Positions 11,036-49,653 of a stretch of DNA of 54,313 bases are shown here, in pieces. The stretch spans positions 1 to 54,313 of IMG/VR virus record IMGVR_UViG_3300043395_001470; one strand, 5' to 3'. Each line of letters opens with the position of its first letter. Within the stretch, counting starts at the first letter, position 1. The stretch comes from a virus. The notes below the pieces were generated by a model, which made no database searches, was not told the origin of the DNA, and saw only the letters and a list, made by a program, of their open reading frames with translations. The position numbers and the translations under genes are program-made.

Positions 11036-11866
11036 TCAGTGTGAACTCCTATGTGCCAGTTTTTCTACTGCCACAATATCTTTATATTTTTTCTTTTTAC
11101 CGCACGATACTTTATAAATCGCGCCTTGACTATAACCATTTTCTTTTGACCAGTTTGTTAATCCACACTGTTCAATTACGTTTCCATCAGCAAATGTAAT
11201 CTTCCACCACATAGAACGAGAATGATTTTCTCCACTCATTTTTTGTCTTATTTCTAAAGAATGTTTTTTTCCAAAATATGGATTATTTTCTCCACTATTT
11301 CTTTTACTTAACTTTTCTTTAAAATCCTCTGAGACCTTTCTCCCTTTGTTTAATTCACTAATTTTTCTCTTTGTTTCTTCAGAGTGATTTCTACCAAGCA
11401 TAGGATTTCTATTTCTTTTCTTTGCTGCTTCACTCATTTTTGCTCTACTTTCTAAAGACATTTTTTTGCCTGTATGTGCTTTACTTCTTTTTTCTCTTTC
11501 TTCTTCTGATATTTTTTTACCATACATAGGATTATTTTTTCCAGACATCAAAATACTTCTTCTTAACCTTGATGATTCATATAAATGTGAATTTATATAA
11601 GTATTTTTTGATTTTTGAGAATTCATACACCAAAAAGCGGTAATCATTTTTTTGGTTTTCTGGTGGTGTATTCCATACCTTTGAATACAAATTTTTTCTA
11701 ATAGTGCGTGTGCTATATAATGTTCTCTTGCAGTAAGAACAACAATTCTATTGTTTTTTCCAAATATACTTTTTGGAAATATATGGTGTTTTTCTATATA
11801 ACCCTCAGGAGGAGTTCTATTCTCTGCTTTCCTGATAAGATTACAATAAACCTTTAGATAGTTCAT
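11036..11866 (-). CDS. HNH homing endonuclease with NUMOD3 repeats
   Basis: The product has 276 residues and starts MNYLKVYCNLIRKAENRTPP. Residues about 24-60 carry an HNH (His-Me finger) core (IEKHHIFPKS, then NRIVVLTAREHYIAHALLE). At least four NUMOD3-type DNA-binding repeats follow (GKKISEEEREKRSKAHTGKK, GRNHSEETKRKISELNKGRK and others), then a modular C terminus. I chose the ATG at 11866 because the preceding TATAAATA late promoter and the AGAGTAGAA leader fix it. It is free-standing between the HExxH gene and the tail genes. See the inverted repeat upstream. Confidence 0.85.
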   Translation of the reverse strand: MNYLKVYCNLIRKAENRTPPEGYIEKHHIFPKSIFGKNNRIVVLTAREHYIAHALLEKICIQRYGIHHQKTKKMITAFWCMNSQKSKNTYINSHLYESSRLRRSILMSGKNNPMYGKKISEEEREKRSKAHTGKKMSLESRAKMSEAAKKRNRNPMLGRNHSEETKRKISELNKGRKVSEDFKEKLSKRNSGENNPYFGKKHSLEIRQKMSGENHSRSMWWKITFADGNVIEQCGLTNWSKENGYSQGAIYKVSCGKKKKYKDIVAVEKLAHRSSH

Positions 11867-11873
11867 TTCTACT

Positions 11874-11950
11874 CTAACTGACTGCATTAGTATTTATATT
11901 ACAAAGGAGAGTATTTCTACTCTCCCCACCCGAAGATTGCAGTCAGTCAG
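11874..11950 (-). promoter_or_regulatory. Late promoter and terminator enclosed by a 13-bp inverted repeat, leader of the HNH gene
   Basis: Outer arms at 11874-11886 and 11938-11950 pair over 13 bp with one G-U. Between them lie a TATAAATA late promoter (11891-11898) and a GGAGAGT/ACTCTCC terminator-like hairpin (11906-11925). The ATG lies 7 nt beyond the inner arm. The same layout precedes the other homing endonuclease genes. Confidence 0.7.
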
Positions 11951-12161
11951 GCAATATTATTTAGATTATAAAATCAAGAGACATTTTAGTTAATCTGACC
12001 ATCCAATTTAAGAATGCTATAAAACTACCAATGAAAATCAATCTGTCCAGCGTGGAGTACCTCATCGGTTTTGTGTGTCTCCACCTACTATAAAACCTCA
12101 CAGATCACTCTGTGAGGTTCAGTGTGTCAGTTTTTAAGGTGTCACAGGGACTTTAGGATGT
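11951..12161 (-). other. Intergenic stretch without a convincing gene
   Basis: Together with the leader above, this is the longest non-coding stretch in the window. It contains the terminator at 12102-12127 and several scattered stops. A 20-codon plus-strand frame near 12034 has no ribosome-binding site. Confidence 0.6.
12102..12127 (-). terminator. Intrinsic terminator after the gene at 12162-12374
   Basis: On the minus strand CCTCACAGA and TCTGTGAGG form a 9-bp stem with a 4-nt loop, followed by TTTTA. It lies 35 nt past the stop codon of the 70-residue gene. Confidence 0.7.
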
Positions 12162-20668: not shown

Positions 20669-20697
20669 ATTATATATCAGTTTTTTTATAGTGTCAA
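20669..20697 (-). promoter_or_regulatory. Perfect sigma70 promoter for the oxygenase operon
   Basis: On the minus strand TTGACA (20692-20697) and TATAAT (20669-20674) are separated by exactly 17 nt. The TGA inside TTGACA is also the stop codon of the upstream homing endonuclease. This indicates early expression by host RNA polymerase. Confidence 0.8.
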
Positions 20698-21317
20698 TTT
20701 ACTTTTTCAACCTTTATAATGTCCTTATATTTTTTTCTATAACCAAGTTTTACATTATAAATTCCAGAATAATGATATTCACTATCTTTCATAAAATCCA
20801 TAATATTTTTAATGATAATACTTTTACCATTATCAAAAGTAATTTTATGAGGACTTGATTTTGATGCACTCACTTTTCTTTTATGTTCTTCGGTACAAGT
20901 TCTACCTTTTCTAACCGCAGACATTTTTGCTTTTGTTTCTTCACTTAATTTTTTACCTCTATTACTTTCAGCAATCTTATCATAAACCCACTGTGGCCTT
21001 TTCTTACCAAGATTTGCTTGACGAAGTTTTTCTCTTGTTTCCTTACTTCTTACAGCACCAGAAGCACCATCTCCACCGTCACTTTTATTTCTTAAGATTC
21101 CATTATTTAAATCAATCCTACCAAACATTAAGATATAAAGTTTCTCTAAAAGAAATGCCTCTTCTTCAGTGAGATTATCTTTAATAATTTTAACTCTTGA
21201 TTTATCTCTTGGTGGTTTGACTTCTTTTGGACCTTTTGTATAGGCTCTTTTTCCAGAACCTTTACCGATATAATATGGACTATGATCTTCCCGTAAATAC
21301 GAGTAAACGTAATACAT
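20694..21317 (-). CDS. GIY-YIG homing endonuclease with NUMOD3 repeats
   Basis: The product has 207 residues. The N terminus has the GIY-YIG core (MYYVYSYLREDHSPYYIGKG) and the downstream Glu region (LTEEEAFLLEKLYILMFGRI, then LRNKSDGGDGASG), as in Seg-type enzymes. NUMOD3 repeats follow (RSKETREKLRQANLGKKRP, KLSEETKAKMSAVRKGRT), then a short C-terminal module (YHYSGIYNVKLGYRKKYKDI) resembling the end of the HNH enzyme at 11036. It is free-standing between a tail gene and the oxygenase operon. Confidence 0.9.
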   Translation of the reverse strand: MYYVYSYLREDHSPYYIGKGSGKRAYTKGPKEVKPPRDKSRVKIIKDNLTEEEAFLLEKLYILMFGRIDLNNGILRNKSDGGDGASGAVRSKETREKLRQANLGKKRPQWVYDKIAESNRGKKLSEETKAKMSAVRKGRTCTEEHKRKVSASKSSPHKITFDNGKSIIIKNIMDFMKDSEYHYSGIYNVKLGYRKKYKDIIKVEKVN

Positions 21318-21327
21318 TTCTACTCAA

Positions 21328-21395
21328 ATGAACCGCAGAAATATTTATACTAAAAAGGAGGGACTTTCACCCTCCTCCTGAAGTTTGCGGTTCAT
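21328..21395 (-). promoter_or_regulatory. Late promoter and terminator enclosed by an inverted repeat, leader of the gene at 20694-21317
   Basis: Outer arms ATGAACCGCA (21328-21337) and TGCGGTTCAT (21386-21395) pair over 10 bp. Inside are TATAAATA (21342-21349) and the terminator hairpin GGAGGG/CCCTCC (21357-21375) with its U-tract. The ATG is 11 nt beyond the inner arm, behind a TGAGTAGAA leader. Confidence 0.7.
21352..21375 (-). terminator. Intrinsic terminator after the gene at 21415-21759
   Basis: GGAGGG and CCCTCC form a stem with a 7-nt loop, followed by TTTTT on the minus strand. Confidence 0.7.
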
Positions 21396-21414
21396 CAGGT
21401 TTAGTTATTTATGT

Positions 21415-41054: not shown

Positions 41055-43297
41055 TATCCTACGATGTTATAGATTGCTCTGACAACCATAGTAGTTGTGT
41101 TGTTTGGATCTTCAGAAGAGAATCTTGGAACTGGTGCTTGATTAGGTGCAGTTCCACTTGACGCCTGCTGTGCTCCACCTCCAGTTGGTATTGGTATAGG
41201 CACAATATTACCTCTACCAGTTGGTGAAGGTATTGATGGTGTAGGTGCTGGTGTTTGTGCTACTTGTGCTGCTGGAGACTGTGCTACTTGAGTTTGCGTA
41301 GTTGGATTTCCTAAAAATGCTATAGGATCTAATGTTCCCGCAAATCCAAAAGTTGTTGCTTTACCTTTTCTTATTTCATAATGAAAAACTCCAGTAGTAT
41401 TTGTTCCTTTGGTAACTGGAGTTCCTGGAGAAACTTTTTGACCTTTTCTGACTAAAATTGTATCTCCTTCGGCAATTCTTTCCGTTACCCCAAGTTCTGG
41501 ATTGTATATGTCAACATACTTATAGTATCCACCAGGATCATTTCCTATATTCGTAACTTCACCACCTATTCTACTATAAAATGAATCGTTAGGTCCTGCA
41601 TCAAAATCTACTCCCGCATGTTTTCTTCCTCCCCCTCTATCAGCACCATAGTGTTGTTTTCCCGGAAGAGTATTTGTTGGAGGTAATGATGGCAATCCTT
41701 TTTGGGATGGTGGTGTTCCAGGAACTGCTGGAGTTTGTGGTTGAATTGCTGGTTGTCCTAATCTTCCTACTGTTCCTCCTCTATCAGCAATTGCCTTTTC
41801 AAGTGCTGCCTCACCTACACCAATCTTTTCAAATTTTGCTTTGATTGCCTCTGATGCTCTATCTTTTTCTTCTTTTTTTTGTTTATATTGAGATTTAAGA
41901 TCATCATCAATTTTGTTAAATCTTTCTCTAAGTTGGTTCTTTTGCAATTGAGTTAAATTTTCATATGTTTTTGGATCTCTGGATCTATCTTTATTTTCTT
42001 TAATTTTTTTTTCAAGATCAAACATTTCATCATTCAGTTTCTTTTTATATCTCATGGTTGCCATGAGATCTTCATAAGGTTTCATTTGTTTATTGACTTC
42101 TGCTGGAGGAGCTCCAGTCTTAACCATAAAATCATATGCTTTATTTCTTAAACTTACAATATCTTCATACCTAAACTTCAATCCAGATTTTGTAACAGAT
42201 TCTCCTCCAACAAGTTGTTGAAGTGCAGGTCTAGCAACATTTTGTAATGTTGCTGCTGCTGCACCTGCTGCAAGACCAGCAAGTGCTGCAAGACCGGCAG
42301 GAGATGCTAAGAATCCAAATGCTGCAGTGAGGGCAGGAATGGCAATAGTAGAAATCGCACTGGTTAATGCTAATAAAGTTGGAGCAATAGGTAGTAAAGC
42401 AATAGCAAGTAATCCACCAAGTATTAACCCAGCATTATTTTGTAAGAAGTTAGCAAACCCATCAATTGCTTTTTGATTTGCTGGATCTTTCAACCACTTA
42501 AACAATCCAAGAACAACAGAACCCAAAAGAACATTCGTAAAGAATCTTTTAATCGCACCAAAGAAATCATCAACAGGTTTTGTAAGTGCTTTAAGTATAG
42601 GTGACTTTGGTTTCTTCTTTTCTAATGTTGATTCTCTTTCCTTCTTCTTTTTCTTTTCTGTTTCTTTTCTATCTTCTTGTGCTGCTTTCTGTTCTGTCTT
42701 ACTTTGACTTGATAACAAAGTTCTAATGGTAATCAAAGACTCTAAGATATTACCAATACCATTTAATAAGTCTTCCTGTAAATTTTCAGTATCAACTACA
42801 GGTTTTTTCTCTTGTTCGGGTGCTACCTCTGCTGCTTGTGGTATAAGTTTCTGAGCCTTTACAATCGCACCAGATGGAGTTGGTTGTTTACGATCTAATA
42901 CTTTATTAATATCAACCTTTTTAGGTTTAACCTTAAATCTACCAGTCTTATTCCTTACTCTCTTGAGTTCATTCGTAACTAACTCAATACTCTCAGTTGT
43001 CATCTGAGAGTCTGGCATTCTTCCCTTAACTGCTGCTTCTTTTAAGAGAGAAGCATATTCTTCATAAGTTAAGTCAAAGACTTCTTCCAATCCTAAGATA
43101 GAAAGAATCTGAGAGTCTATATCTTCTTCTACTAAATCTTCTGGTTTTTTTGGTATGACAGCAAGTGCGGAAGATGATTGTGGCGCATCCTCATTTTTAA
43201 TACTTTCCAACAGATCATCCAAACCAGGGATGTTATCATCATCCTCTTCTTGAATGCTCTTAAGTAGATCGTCTAAACTGGGAATGTTATCAGCCAT
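41054..43297 (-). CDS. Tape-measure-like hub protein with M23 (lysostaphin-type) domain
   Basis: The product has 747 residues. It starts with two copies of an acidic motif (NIPSLDDLLKSIQEED, NIPGLDDLLESIKNED). A helical region, a hydrophobic block FFTNVLLGSVVLGLF (residues 252-266) similar to the neighbour, and long Ala-rich segments (290-350) follow. An M23 domain lies at about 545-660: HAGVD (His560, Asp564) gives two zinc ligands and FHYE (His639) a third. The first His of the usual HxH is Val. The gene pair (this and 39288) looks like a duplication with two different wall-hydrolase domains. Confidence 0.7.
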   Translation of the reverse strand: MADNIPSLDDLLKSIQEEDDDNIPGLDDLLESIKNEDAPQSSSALAVIPKKPEDLVEEDIDSQILSILGLEEVFDLTYEEYASLLKEAAVKGRMPDSQMTTESIELVTNELKRVRNKTGRFKVKPKKVDINKVLDRKQPTPSGAIVKAQKLIPQAAEVAPEQEKKPVVDTENLQEDLLNGIGNILESLITIRTLLSSQSKTEQKAAQEDRKETEKKKKKERESTLEKKKPKSPILKALTKPVDDFFGAIKRFFTNVLLGSVVLGLFKWLKDPANQKAIDGFANFLQNNAGLILGGLLAIALLPIAPTLLALTSAISTIAIPALTAAFGFLASPAGLAALAGLAAGAAAATLQNVARPALQQLVGGESVTKSGLKFRYEDIVSLRNKAYDFMVKTGAPPAEVNKQMKPYEDLMATMRYKKKLNDEMFDLEKKIKENKDRSRDPKTYENLTQLQKNQLRERFNKIDDDLKSQYKQKKEEKDRASEAIKAKFEKIGVGEAALEKAIADRGGTVGRLGQPAIQPQTPAVPGTPPSQKGLPSLPPTNTLPGKQHYGADRGGGRKHAGVDFDAGPNDSFYSRIGGEVTNIGNDPGGYYKYVDIYNPELGVTERIAEGDTILVRKGQKVSPGTPVTKGTNTTGVFHYEIRKGKATTFGFAGTLDPIAFLGNPTTQTQVAQSPAAQVAQTPAPTPSIPSPTGRGNIVPIPIPTGGGAQQASSGTAPNQAPVPRFSSEDPNNTTTMVVRAIYNIVG

Positions 43298-47101: not shown

Positions 47102-48124
47102 ATGGCAAGACCTTACTTCAGACAAGTTCCTAACTTTGAATATGTCAGCAGAAACTCTGGAGAACAAAACATCTCCGATTATATTGCTGTCAAAAATCTT
47201 TTCAAGAGAGGAAAGTTAAGAGATGATATCTTCGGAAATCTTAACTACTTCACAAAGTATAAGATCGTCGGTGATGAAAGACCTGATAATGTTGCATTTA
47301 AATTGTATGGAGATTCAACTCTTGATTGGGTTGTTCTTCTCTCCAATAACATTCTGAATATTCAAACAGAATGGCCTATGACTCAGAAAACCTTTGATCA
47401 AGTTATGCTTGAAAAATATGGTTCTTACGAAAATCTTTACTCTGGTATTCATCATTATGAAACAGAAGAAATTAGAGATTCTAAAGGAAGAATAGTTCTC
47501 AGAAGTGGACTCAGGATCTCACCAACTTGGAAAACAAACGGTAACTTTGTAGAGATTGTCAACTCTCAGATTGCTGTTATCTCATCAGGAGATTCAGTGA
47601 ATCCTTCATCAACTGTAACTGTTTATCTTGTAAATGGTATTCCTGGATTGGAAATAGGAAGTCAAGTTGCAATCAATAATGTTACCGAGAATCAATACAA
47701 TGGAAGACAAGTTGTAACAGAAATCCTTGCTCAGAATGGAAATGTTGTAACTGGTTTTAGATACAAACTATCATTTACTCCAAATATTGCATCTCCAACA
47801 TTATCAAATCCAAGAAAAGAAGAAGCATTATTCTTAGTTCCAGAAACATCTGCAGTTACAGCAAACTCTTATTATTATGAGTATTGGGATGCTGGTCTTG
47901 GATATTCAGTCTATGTTCCATCAACTTCTTTTGTGTCAACAGTAACCAATCACGAATACGAACTTCAGATTCAACAAGAAAGAAGAAATATTTTTACTCT
48001 GAAACCACAATATCTGAATGTCATCTTTAATGATCTCGATGATATTATGCCATATAAAAAAGGTGGCAGTCAGTATGTGAATGCCACCTTGAAGAGAGGA
48101 GAAAATATTAGACTGTTTGAATAG
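47102..48124 (+). CDS. 53: gp53 baseplate wedge protein
   Basis: The product has 340 residues, longer than T4 gp53 (about 196). The start YFRQVPNFEYVSRN, then YKIVGDERPDNVAFKLYGDS and TLDWVVLLSNNILNIQTEWP, is the gp53 family pattern. A beta-rich insert (residues 160-260) and a LysM-like end complete it. Its last 17 bases overlap the 3' end of the convergent homing endonuclease gene, and a terminator for that gene lies inside its coding region. Confidence 0.85.
   Translation: MARPYFRQVPNFEYVSRNSGEQNISDYIAVKNLFKRGKLRDDIFGNLNYFTKYKIVGDERPDNVAFKLYGDSTLDWVVLLSNNILNIQTEWPMTQKTFDQVMLEKYGSYENLYSGIHHYETEEIRDSKGRIVLRSGLRISPTWKTNGNFVEIVNSQIAVISSGDSVNPSSTVTVYLVNGIPGLEIGSQVAINNVTENQYNGRQVVTEILAQNGNVVTGFRYKLSFTPNIASPTLSNPRKEEALFLVPETSAVTANSYYYEYWDAGLGYSVYVPSTSFVSTVTNHEYELQIQQERRNIFTLKPQYLNVIFNDLDDIMPYKKGGSQYVNATLKRGENIRLFE
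48055..48090 (-). terminator. Terminator of the homing endonuclease inside gp53 coding sequence
   Basis: AAGGTGGCA and TGCCACCTT form a perfect 9-bp stem followed by TTTTT on the minus strand, while the plus strand codes for gp53 here. It lies 18 nt past the stop of the gene at 48108-48626. Confidence 0.65.
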
Positions 48125-48626
48125 ATTTTTTATTCCAAGGAATCCTTCCTTTGGTTGCTTCACTTATTTTTCTTTTAGTTTCTTCAGAATGTTTCTTTCC
48201 AGGTTTACCTTTTCTTTCTTGATGAATTTTTCTAAGTCTTTCTATACCCTCTGGAGTTTGTCTCGGTTTTCCTTTATTAGACTCTCCAATTTTTCTTTTA
48301 TGACTTTCACTAAGTTTTCTTCCTTTTAAGGAAGCACACATTTTTCTCCTTTCTTCATCCATAATAACACCAGAAACTCCATCACCACCATTTGTCTTAT
48401 TGTGAAGGATTCCAGTTCCTAAATCTTTTCTTCCAAACACAGCAATCATATAGATTTCGTGCTTAAATGCTTCTTCTTCAGTTAGATTTTGTTTGAGGAA
48501 CATTCTTTTATTTTTTTCTGGTGGATAAAATCCATTATGCTTTTGGTGGATTCTTCTACCTTTACCTTTACCAACATAATAAGGAGTTCCATCTTCACGC
48601 AAATAGGCGTAAGTGTAATAATTCAT
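48108..48626 (-). CDS. GIY-YIG homing endonuclease with NUMOD3 repeats
   Basis: The product has 172 residues. The N terminus MNYYTYAYLREDGTPYYVGK is a GIY-YIG core, with LTEEEAFKHEIYMIAVFGRK and the NKTNGGDGVSG block as in the gene at 20694. NUMOD3 repeats (KLSESHKRKIGESNKGKP, KHSEETKRKISEATKGRI) complete it. It lies between gp32 and gp53 and overlaps gp53's 3' end by 17 nt in convergent orientation, which suggests a mobile insertion at a conserved site. Confidence 0.9.
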   Translation of the reverse strand: MNYYTYAYLREDGTPYYVGKGKGRRIHQKHNGFYPPEKNKRMFLKQNLTEEEAFKHEIYMIAVFGRKDLGTGILHNKTNGGDGVSGVIMDEERRKMCASLKGRKLSESHKRKIGESNKGKPRQTPEGIERLRKIHQERKGKPGKKHSEETKRKISEATKGRIPWNKKSIQTV

Positions 48627-48635
48627 AATTCTACT

Positions 48636-48707
48636 CTGTAAGTCGCAATATTATTTATACAAGAAAAGGTGCCGAAGCACCCTTTCCACCCATAATGCGA
48701 CTTACAG
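48636..48707 (-). promoter_or_regulatory. Late promoter and UUCG terminator enclosed by a 12-bp inverted repeat, leader of the gene at 48108-48626
   Basis: Outer arms CTGTAAGTCGCA (48636-48647) and TGCGACTTACAG (48696-48707) pair perfectly. Inside are TATAAATA (48652-48659) and the hairpin GGTGC/GCACC with a UUCG loop (48668-48682). The ATG lies 9 nt beyond the inner arm, behind AGAGTAGAATT. Confidence 0.75.
48663..48683 (-). terminator. Intrinsic terminator after gp32 with UUCG tetraloop
   Basis: On the minus strand GGGTGC, TTCG, GCACC, then TTTTC form a classic stable terminator, about 35 nt past the gp32 stop. Confidence 0.8.
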
Positions 48708-48717
48708 GTAATGTTAT

Positions 48718-49653
48718 TTAGTCGTTGGCTAAACGAGAAAAATATGCCATCGCATCATCTTCATCCTCATCAGAAGTTTCAATCTTAGGAAGTGAAGGAG
48801 ACTTGCTGCGAGCAAAGGATTGCTCCAGTTCTGCAATCACATTCTCTTCCTTAGAAGGAGTTTGAGTGTAAGATTCATACTCATCTTCCTGCTCTTGAAC
48901 AGCAGCACGAGCAGACTTCTGACCCAGAACATACTTCAGACGCTTCTCAAGATCCTCATAAGACTTGAACTGATCAGGAGCAACGATAGCAGAGAGAGAA
49001 TACTCTTTCTTCCAAAGTGCTTCAAGTGCGTCATCATCATCCAGCAGTGCAGAAGGAGAATCAAACTCAGACTTATCATAGTTCCAGTAACCTTCAACCT
49101 TACGAATCTTCAGACGGAAGTTTGCTCCACCCCAGAAATCAAAAGGATTGATAGGTTCTTCATCTTCAAACTCAGGTTGCATTGCATTCAGGATCTTATC
49201 AAAGATCTTCTTACCAAACTTGAACAGGAAGACTTTACCTTCGTTCTCAGGATGGGCAGGATCCTTTACAACGTAGATGTTTGCAAAGTAAGACAGTTTG
49301 CGCTTCTGCTTACGAACAGTTTCTTTATCCTTCTCACTACCACTGTTCCAGAGTTCACGGTTGTGCTCGGACACAGGATCCTTCTGACCAATAGTAGTCA
49401 GAGAGTTCTCGATGTACCAACCACCGTTACCTTGGAATGCATGAGAATACATCTTGACCCAGGGGAGTTCTTCACCTTCAGGTGCAGGAAGGAAACGAAT
49501 AATTGCGGAACCAACACCAGTCTTATCCATTTCTGGTTTCCAGAAACGTTCATCAGCACCACCAGAACCAGTGCTCATTTTTTCTACTTCCTTCACCAGT
49601 TTCTCAGTGAGAGAACCCAGTTTAGATTGCTTTTTCAGATTTTCGAAAGACAT
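48718..49653 (-). CDS. 32: gp32 single-stranded DNA-binding protein
   Basis: The product has 311 residues (T4 gp32 is 301). The N-terminal basic part (SFENLKKQSKLGSLTEKLVK) resembles the cooperativity domain. The OB-fold core has VGSAIIRFLPAPEGEELPWV, SHAFQGNGGWYIENSLTTIG and WNYDKSEFDSPSALLDDDDA. The C terminus is very acidic (ETSDEDEDDAMAYF), as needed for contacts with replication proteins. The protein has no Cys at all, so the T4 zinc site is missing (only His71 remains). It is the last gene of a replication block. Confidence 0.95.
   Translation of the reverse strand: MSFENLKKQSKLGSLTEKLVKEVEKMSTGSGGADERFWKPEMDKTGVGSAIIRFLPAPEGEELPWVKMYSHAFQGNGGWYIENSLTTIGQKDPVSEHNRELWNSGSEKDKETVRKQKRKLSYFANIYVVKDPAHPENEGKVFLFKFGKKIFDKILNAMQPEFEDEEPINPFDFWGGANFRLKIRKVEGYWNYDKSEFDSPSALLDDDDALEALWKKEYSLSAIVAPDQFKSYEDLEKRLKYVLGQKSARAAVQEQEDEYESYTQTPSKEENVIAELEQSFARSKSPSLPKIETSDEDEDDAMAYFSRLAND

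Follow-up and report, generated by a model that had tools for sequence, protein, structure and literature searches.

The window analysed here, the whole 54,313-nt stretch of IMG/VR virus record IMGVR_UViG_3300043395_001470, is a fragment of a T4-like cyanomyovirus encoding gp32, a gp53-like wedge protein, tail fibres and a 2OG-Fe(II) oxygenase, and its best DNA matches are Synechococcus phages. Three minus-strand ORFs linked to structured leaders carry NUMOD3 motifs and match phrog homing-endonuclease families (Table 1). The ORF at site 1, called as 11036-11887, probably starts at 11866 instead, since the predicted late mRNA begins at 11885, downstream of the ATG at 11887. This in-frame ATG is created by promoter and initiator sequence, and ORF callers would begin the endonuclease there. 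The site-3 endonuclease and the convergent gp53-like ORF (47102-48124) share 48108-48124, the 3' end of the latter; the gp53-like ORF encodes 340 aa, the baseplate-wedge gene beside gp32 in Bellamy and S-SM2 about 221 aa. A PDB search with the site-3 endonuclease as query returned no match.

A preliminary description had reported that the three leaders share one order of elements, and this order is real (11950-11874, 21391-21325 and 48707-48636, minus strand). In minus-strand direction, all three comprise a 5' arm, a GC hairpin with U-tract, TATAAATA, a 3' arm, (A/T)GAGTAGAA and the ATG. The arm pairs are CTGACTGACTGCA/TGCAGTCAGTTAG at site 1, GATGAACCGCA/TGCGGTTCATT at site 2 and CTGTAAGTCGCA/TGCGACTTACAG at site 3, and their scores were reached by 2, 4 and 0 of 2000 dinucleotide shuffles, respectively. 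Among the 10 TATAAATA sites in the window, the three leaders had the top arm scores (30.5, 25.5 and 33, the next being 18). Three further features had gone unnoticed: a second promoter box, [A/C]TAAATA, stands left of the 5' arm at 3/3 sites, the 5' arm is held in a local hairpin (CCTGA/TCAGG, termed P1), and arm pairing continues across the Shine-Dalgarno (SD) sequence. When the three window pairs were combined with non-cognate partners, the predicted duplexes reached -4.7 to -9.4 kcal/mol (cognate values in Table 1).

Table 1. Features of the three leader-linked endonuclease loci in the window, and examples of the second leader class in other loci.
Feature	Position	Strand	Remarks
Site 1 NUMOD3 homing endonuclease ORF	11036..11866	(-)	276 aa, phrog_655/314
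Site 1 left late-promoter-like box CTAAATA	11958..11964	(-)	predicted RNA start 11952
Site 1 predicted terminated RNA, ~50 nt	11899..11952	(-)	P1 GCCTGA...TCGGGT holding arm CTGACTGACTGCA
Site 1 terminator hairpin	11927-11904	(-)	after P1, with U-rich tail
Site 1 right late promoter TATAAATA	11891..11898	(-)	predicted mRNA start 11885
Site 1 predicted mRNA 5' end: arm' GCAGTCAGTTAG + SD GAGTAGAA	11867..11885	(-)	predicted duplex with left RNA -22.8 kcal/mol
Site 2 NUMOD3 / GIY-YIG-type homing endonuclease ORF	20694..21317	(-)	207 aa, phrog_15526/314
Site 2 left late-promoter-like box ATAAATA	21406..21412	(-)	predicted RNA start 21400
Site 2 predicted terminated RNA	21350..21400	(-)	P1 CCTGA/TCAGG, arm GATGAACCGCA, terminator 21379-21353
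Site 2 right late promoter TATAAATA	21342..21349	(-)	predicted mRNA start 21336
Site 2 arm' GCGGTTCATT + SD GAGTAGAA	21318..21336	(-)	predicted duplex -17.5 kcal/mol
Site 3 NUMOD3 / GIY-YIG-type homing endonuclease ORF	48108..48626	(-)	172 aa, between gp32 and gp53-like gene
Site 3 left late-promoter-like box CTAAATA	48715..48721	(-)	overlaps gp32 stop codon; predicted RNA start 48709
Site 3 predicted terminated RNA	48660..48709	(-)	P1 ACCTGTAA/TTATGGGT, arm CTGTAAGTCGCA, terminator 48687-48662
Site 3 right late promoter TATAAATA	48652..48659	(-)	predicted mRNA start 48646
Site 3 arm' GCGACTTACAG + SD GAGTAGAA	48629..48646	(-)	predicted duplex -20.6 kcal/mol
Class 2 leaders, examples	L083:2085, L149:2468, L277, L365, L476 and others

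Further leaders came from IMG/VR, which we scanned three times by pattern and once by homology, and from 35 long contigs. This gave at least 232 distinct leaders, all with paired arms and followed by an ORF that mostly encodes an endonuclease, in cyanomyovirus contigs and isolates. Clustering at 80% identity left 92 non-redundant leaders of the at least 232 listed; the counts given here are of leaders rather than independent events, with shared ancestry reduced by the clustering. Among 75 non-redundant ORFs behind leaders, 52 match the homing-endonuclease family phrog_314 and 42 carry NUMOD3, others matching HNH families. The leader is present in the isolates S-SRM01, B23 and S-B68, and in ACG-2014f, S-N03 and RN05-S related endonucleases abut or overlap the upstream gene and have no leader. 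The pattern identified a leader at no fewer than 59 of the 80 loci closest to the site-3 protein, and inspection yielded a few more; most of the others have no leader at all. A scan of 85,000 bacterial and archaeal genomes with the right-hand pattern gave four matches, all without pairing arms and attributable to chance.

The left half of the leader resembles a transcription unit of its own. In 146 of the 147 leaders listed that had been recovered by their right half or protein only, [A/C]TAAATA stands left of the 5' arm, compared to a background of 0.8% per 20-nt window. Within the non-redundant set, ATAAT follows the left box, with a purine after it (95%), and nTAwT follows the right box, with G/A after it (98%), both boxes having equal spacing to the same initiator. 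Because the 92 leaders were selected for having TAAATA and TATAAA, only the flanking positions and the count of 146/147 are independent evidence. The left box has A (70%) or C (30%) in front of TAAATA, with a purine at its predicted +1; ordinary late-promoter-like TAAATA sites that precede other ORFs on these contigs are similarly composed (A 72%, C 28%, purine 81%). Its sequence agrees with the published late promoter of S-PM2, NATAAATA (PMC2984593). The P1 stem begins at the left predicted +1 or +2 and covaries (ACCTGA/TCAGGT, GCTTAA/TTAAGC, GTCTGT/ACAGAC, ACCTAA/TTAGGT), pairing on average over 4.91 bp with its own partner as compared to 3.86 bp (sd 0.09) when partners are shuffled among leaders. 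The 5' arm forms part of the 5' strand of P1 and part of its loop. A terminator hairpin follows P1 in 92/92 leaders; its U-tract has 5 or more T within 8 nt in 85/92 and is weak in the other 7/92. With P1 followed by the terminator, the left unit reads as a 5' hairpin with a recognition loop and an intrinsic terminator, a predicted RNA of ~50-60 nt having the anatomy of a small antisense RNA.

We then compared the two arms position by position across the 92 leaders. From the predicted mRNA +1 to +8, pairing amounts to 97-100%, with all four Watson-Crick types occurring at single positions. Beyond the predicted mRNA start it drops to 88% at -1, 32% at -2 and 12% at -4, such that the arm stops where, judging from the promoter sequence, the mRNA should start. 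At the other end, +1/+2 of the left RNA form covarying pairs with the SD, with one A bulged out in between: AC-GT (23), GC-GC (11), GT-AT (8). These positions are paired in 102/108 cases, compared to 89.5 in shuffles, and none of 10,000 shuffles reached as high a number. Together, the two results describe a complementarity that extends from one RNA's predicted 5' end, through the SD, up to that of its partner. Predicted duplexes are far more stable for cognate (-21.4 kcal/mol) than for non-cognate pairs (-8.1 kcal/mol), and the cognate arm is the strongest partner for 73/92 leaders. G-U pairs occur in the arms, and an RNAalifold run on 31 leaders arrives at the outer helix without prompting, 8/12 of its pairs showing compensatory changes. 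Pairing at the RNA level is well supported. Orthogonality of the arms within genomes was considered as proof of trans action and discarded (P=0.13): strong cross-pairs within a genome number 2 versus 5.2 expected, a depletion that is not significant, partly because identical or near-identical cassettes co-occur. Given this result and one contig holding two leaders with identical arms (G005), there is no evidence that arms are kept distinct per genome.

The preliminary description had proposed one mobile leader whose arms are either selected for pairing or recreated from the flanks of the insertion. The former agrees with the near-complete pairing in the 92 leaders and with the differing endonuclease families found behind them. 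The latter was not borne out at the gp32 site, the one site for which arm and flanks were compared. Over 400 nt around the empty gp32/gp53 junction of Bellamy and S-SM2, the site-3 arm matched at 8/12 positions, no better than shuffled arms, and the reading of the arms as copies of the insertion flanks was rejected for this site. The empty junction itself has adjacent stop codons and no box, hairpin, terminator or promoter. The arm is tied to neither site nor protein, since the same arm occurs with different endonucleases (ACCTGATTTGACCGCA precedes several ORF types in 19 contigs) and arms mostly differ between the sites of one genome. Related genes without a terminator or with unpaired arms, the counter-case named in the preliminary description, did not turn up where the leader exists: 169/170 left units found by the left half alone have a matching arm. 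Related genes without any leader do exist, abutting the upstream gene. The single exception (L339, minus strand, index 3388) retains an intact left unit, has TATAATA as right box, and has lost arm' as well as the endonuclease reading frame. Such decay would be expected if pairing were maintained only for as long as the gene is functional. Apart from this decayed cassette, no orphan left unit far from a target was present among the 170.

Anatomy, covariation, constant spacings and the association with many endonuclease families are features that can be read from the DNA itself. We consider it probable that the leader is a two-RNA module, in which the homing endonuclease is repressed by its own same-strand antisense sRNA, encoded in tandem, and the action of this sRNA is best read as being combined with, or replacing, a cis hairpin of the T4 type. 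The left [A/C]TAAATA late-type box would start an RNA of ~50 nt, composed of the arm-bearing 5' hairpin and the intrinsic terminator, and transcription of the endonuclease mRNA would begin at the other arm, from the second late promoter TATAAATA. Pairing between the initial ~15 nt of the sRNA and those of the mRNA, with the SD included and one A bulged out, would block ribosome binding. Transcripts reading through the terminator would fold the same arms in cis and should also be silent. The view of the terminator as a second barrier captures part of its predicted role, as it would insulate the upstream gene, and is incomplete, as it would also set the 3' end of a discrete RNA. Two-RNA control of this kind should render the endonuclease late, weakly expressed and privately repressed, and the control module would travel with the free-standing homing endonuclease gene. 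We infer that both boxes initiate transcription and that the small RNA accumulates, acts in trans and represses.

Pure cis control as in T4 is a possible though doubtful alternative. Here, the arms would pair only in read-through transcripts initiated upstream, thereby hiding the SD, the internal late promoter would give a short translatable mRNA, and the left TAAATA would be incidental or add read-through. Such an arrangement is documented for I-TevI, segB and Aeh1 mobE (PMC2988022), the outer helix found by RNAalifold is present in the predicted cis fold of each window leader, and a purely cis structure would likewise predict that no left unit lies away from its target. However, cis control leaves unexplained why a near-invariant left box stands at fixed spacing, why P1 sits at the left +1, why a terminator lies between the arms in every one of the 92 leaders, and why pairing ends at the predicted mRNA +1.

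Two other readings were considered. One would treat the leader as a DNA-level element, with the arms being endonuclease recognition or operator sites, or target-site sequence duplicated on insertion. I-TevI autoregulates via an operator that covers its own late promoter and resembles the homing site (PMC2988022), and the late promoter in the cyanophage leaders is indeed flanked by arms. Yet G-U pairs, pairing with the SD and a start at +1 are RNA features, and the gp32-site arm fits the empty junction no better than shuffled arms do. We rejected the arms as protein operators because one arm serves different endonuclease families, and hold a DNA-level role to be highly improbable. It would be comparably surprising if the arms merely formed a mechanical stem, insulating the cassette by terminator reinforcement or mRNA stability and exerting no translational control; the terminator hairpin is always there, but the arm lies outside the terminator, separated from it, and covariation extends into the SD.

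Several known systems share part of this layout. In I-TevI, segB, Aeh1 mobE and seg43 of Aeromonas phage 25, a late promoter lies between the arms and the SD is hidden in longer transcripts (PMC2988022). Shared with these T4-type hairpins are the homing endonuclease gene, the two complementary arms flanking a late promoter, and the SD in the paired region. In contrast to them, the cyanophage leaders add a terminator between the arms, a second late-promoter box at the 5' arm and a 5'-arm hairpin, and one module serves different endonuclease families. Closest in logic is the C4 antisense RNA, which is complementary to the translation start region of its target, controls an antirepressor, is processed from an operon transcript and is confined to one locus. 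In the immI region (c4-icd-ant) of P1 and P7, it lies upstream on the same strand and has its own promoter P2c4, within the operon c4-icd-ant1/2 (PMC8198154). The cyanophage leaders, for which complementarity, promoter box and terminator predict a similar upstream unit on the same strand, differ in their late promoters, in a 3' end that the terminator would create and in the dozens of specificities present before homing endonucleases. The C4 Rfam family had no match in the window (gathering threshold) or in the three loci L001-L003 at E<=1. At gathering, Rfam yielded two tRNAs only in the window, and across six loci at E<=1 only a sub-threshold Gut-1 match, elsewhere in L277. By analogy, the cyanophage leader would work like C4 joined to the T4 homing-endonuclease hairpin, and is homologous to neither by any test used here.

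Type I toxin-antitoxin systems such as tisB/istR and shoB/ohsC rely on short non-overlapping complementarity, encode small membrane toxins and usually have a divergent RNA. The leaders would resemble them in pairing a small RNA, by short complementarity, with the 5' leader of a potentially harmful gene, but the cyanophage target is a nuclease and the predicted RNA lies in tandem. A cyanophage antisense RNA linked to a homing endonuclease gene has been described in S-PM2, where CfrI, ~225 nt long, overlaps psbA and F-CphI on the opposite strand (PMC2984593). The leaders differ from CfrI in their same-strand tandem order and in the tandem inverted arms, which CfrI lacks. Our literature search, with subscription journals mostly outside its reach, found no description of this arrangement.

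A second leader class (class 2) comprises 26 distinct leaders with 18 arms. It has an unrelated left hairpin, GGGCAGC..loop..GCGTAAGnCCC, whose loop contains the arm; a TAAATA-type box, arm' and an ORF, mostly for an endonuclease, come next. The left promoter of this class is not uniform, TAAATA being present in 7/26, and no Rfam family matched the class 2 leaders in the loci scanned. One class 2 leader is carried by the isolate Sf-CH5. This class suggests that the logic of an arm in a loop, a late box and a complementary 5' end arose or was assembled more than once.

If the left unit of the two-RNA module is a real sRNA, cyanophage homing endonucleases would be portable cassettes equipped with their own terminator, promoter and antisense repressor, which could help explain the presence of up to 8 endonucleases on a single contig and would provide a large, naturally occurring collection of antisense RNAs with their matching targets. 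More generally, what looks like a single nested hairpin in a leader can be a pair of overlapping units. We think it unlikely, if conceivable, that the cassettes are a swarm of selfish genes in which every member has its private sRNA, trans-acting and exchangeable in specificity, that silences the resident endonuclease and also same-arm endonucleases of co-infecting phages, amounting to RNA-based interference and immunity among homing elements.

Endonuclease cassettes can be very dense, with 8 in IMG/VR 3300040856_003054 (136 kb) and 5 or more in IMG/VR 3300007735_000887 (19 kb). In GenBank, NUMOD3-type endonucleases of S-SRM01 (62515-63273), B23 (41542-42165) and Sf-CH5 (156271-156693) are labelled 'translation initiation factor 2', apparently a propagated misannotation.
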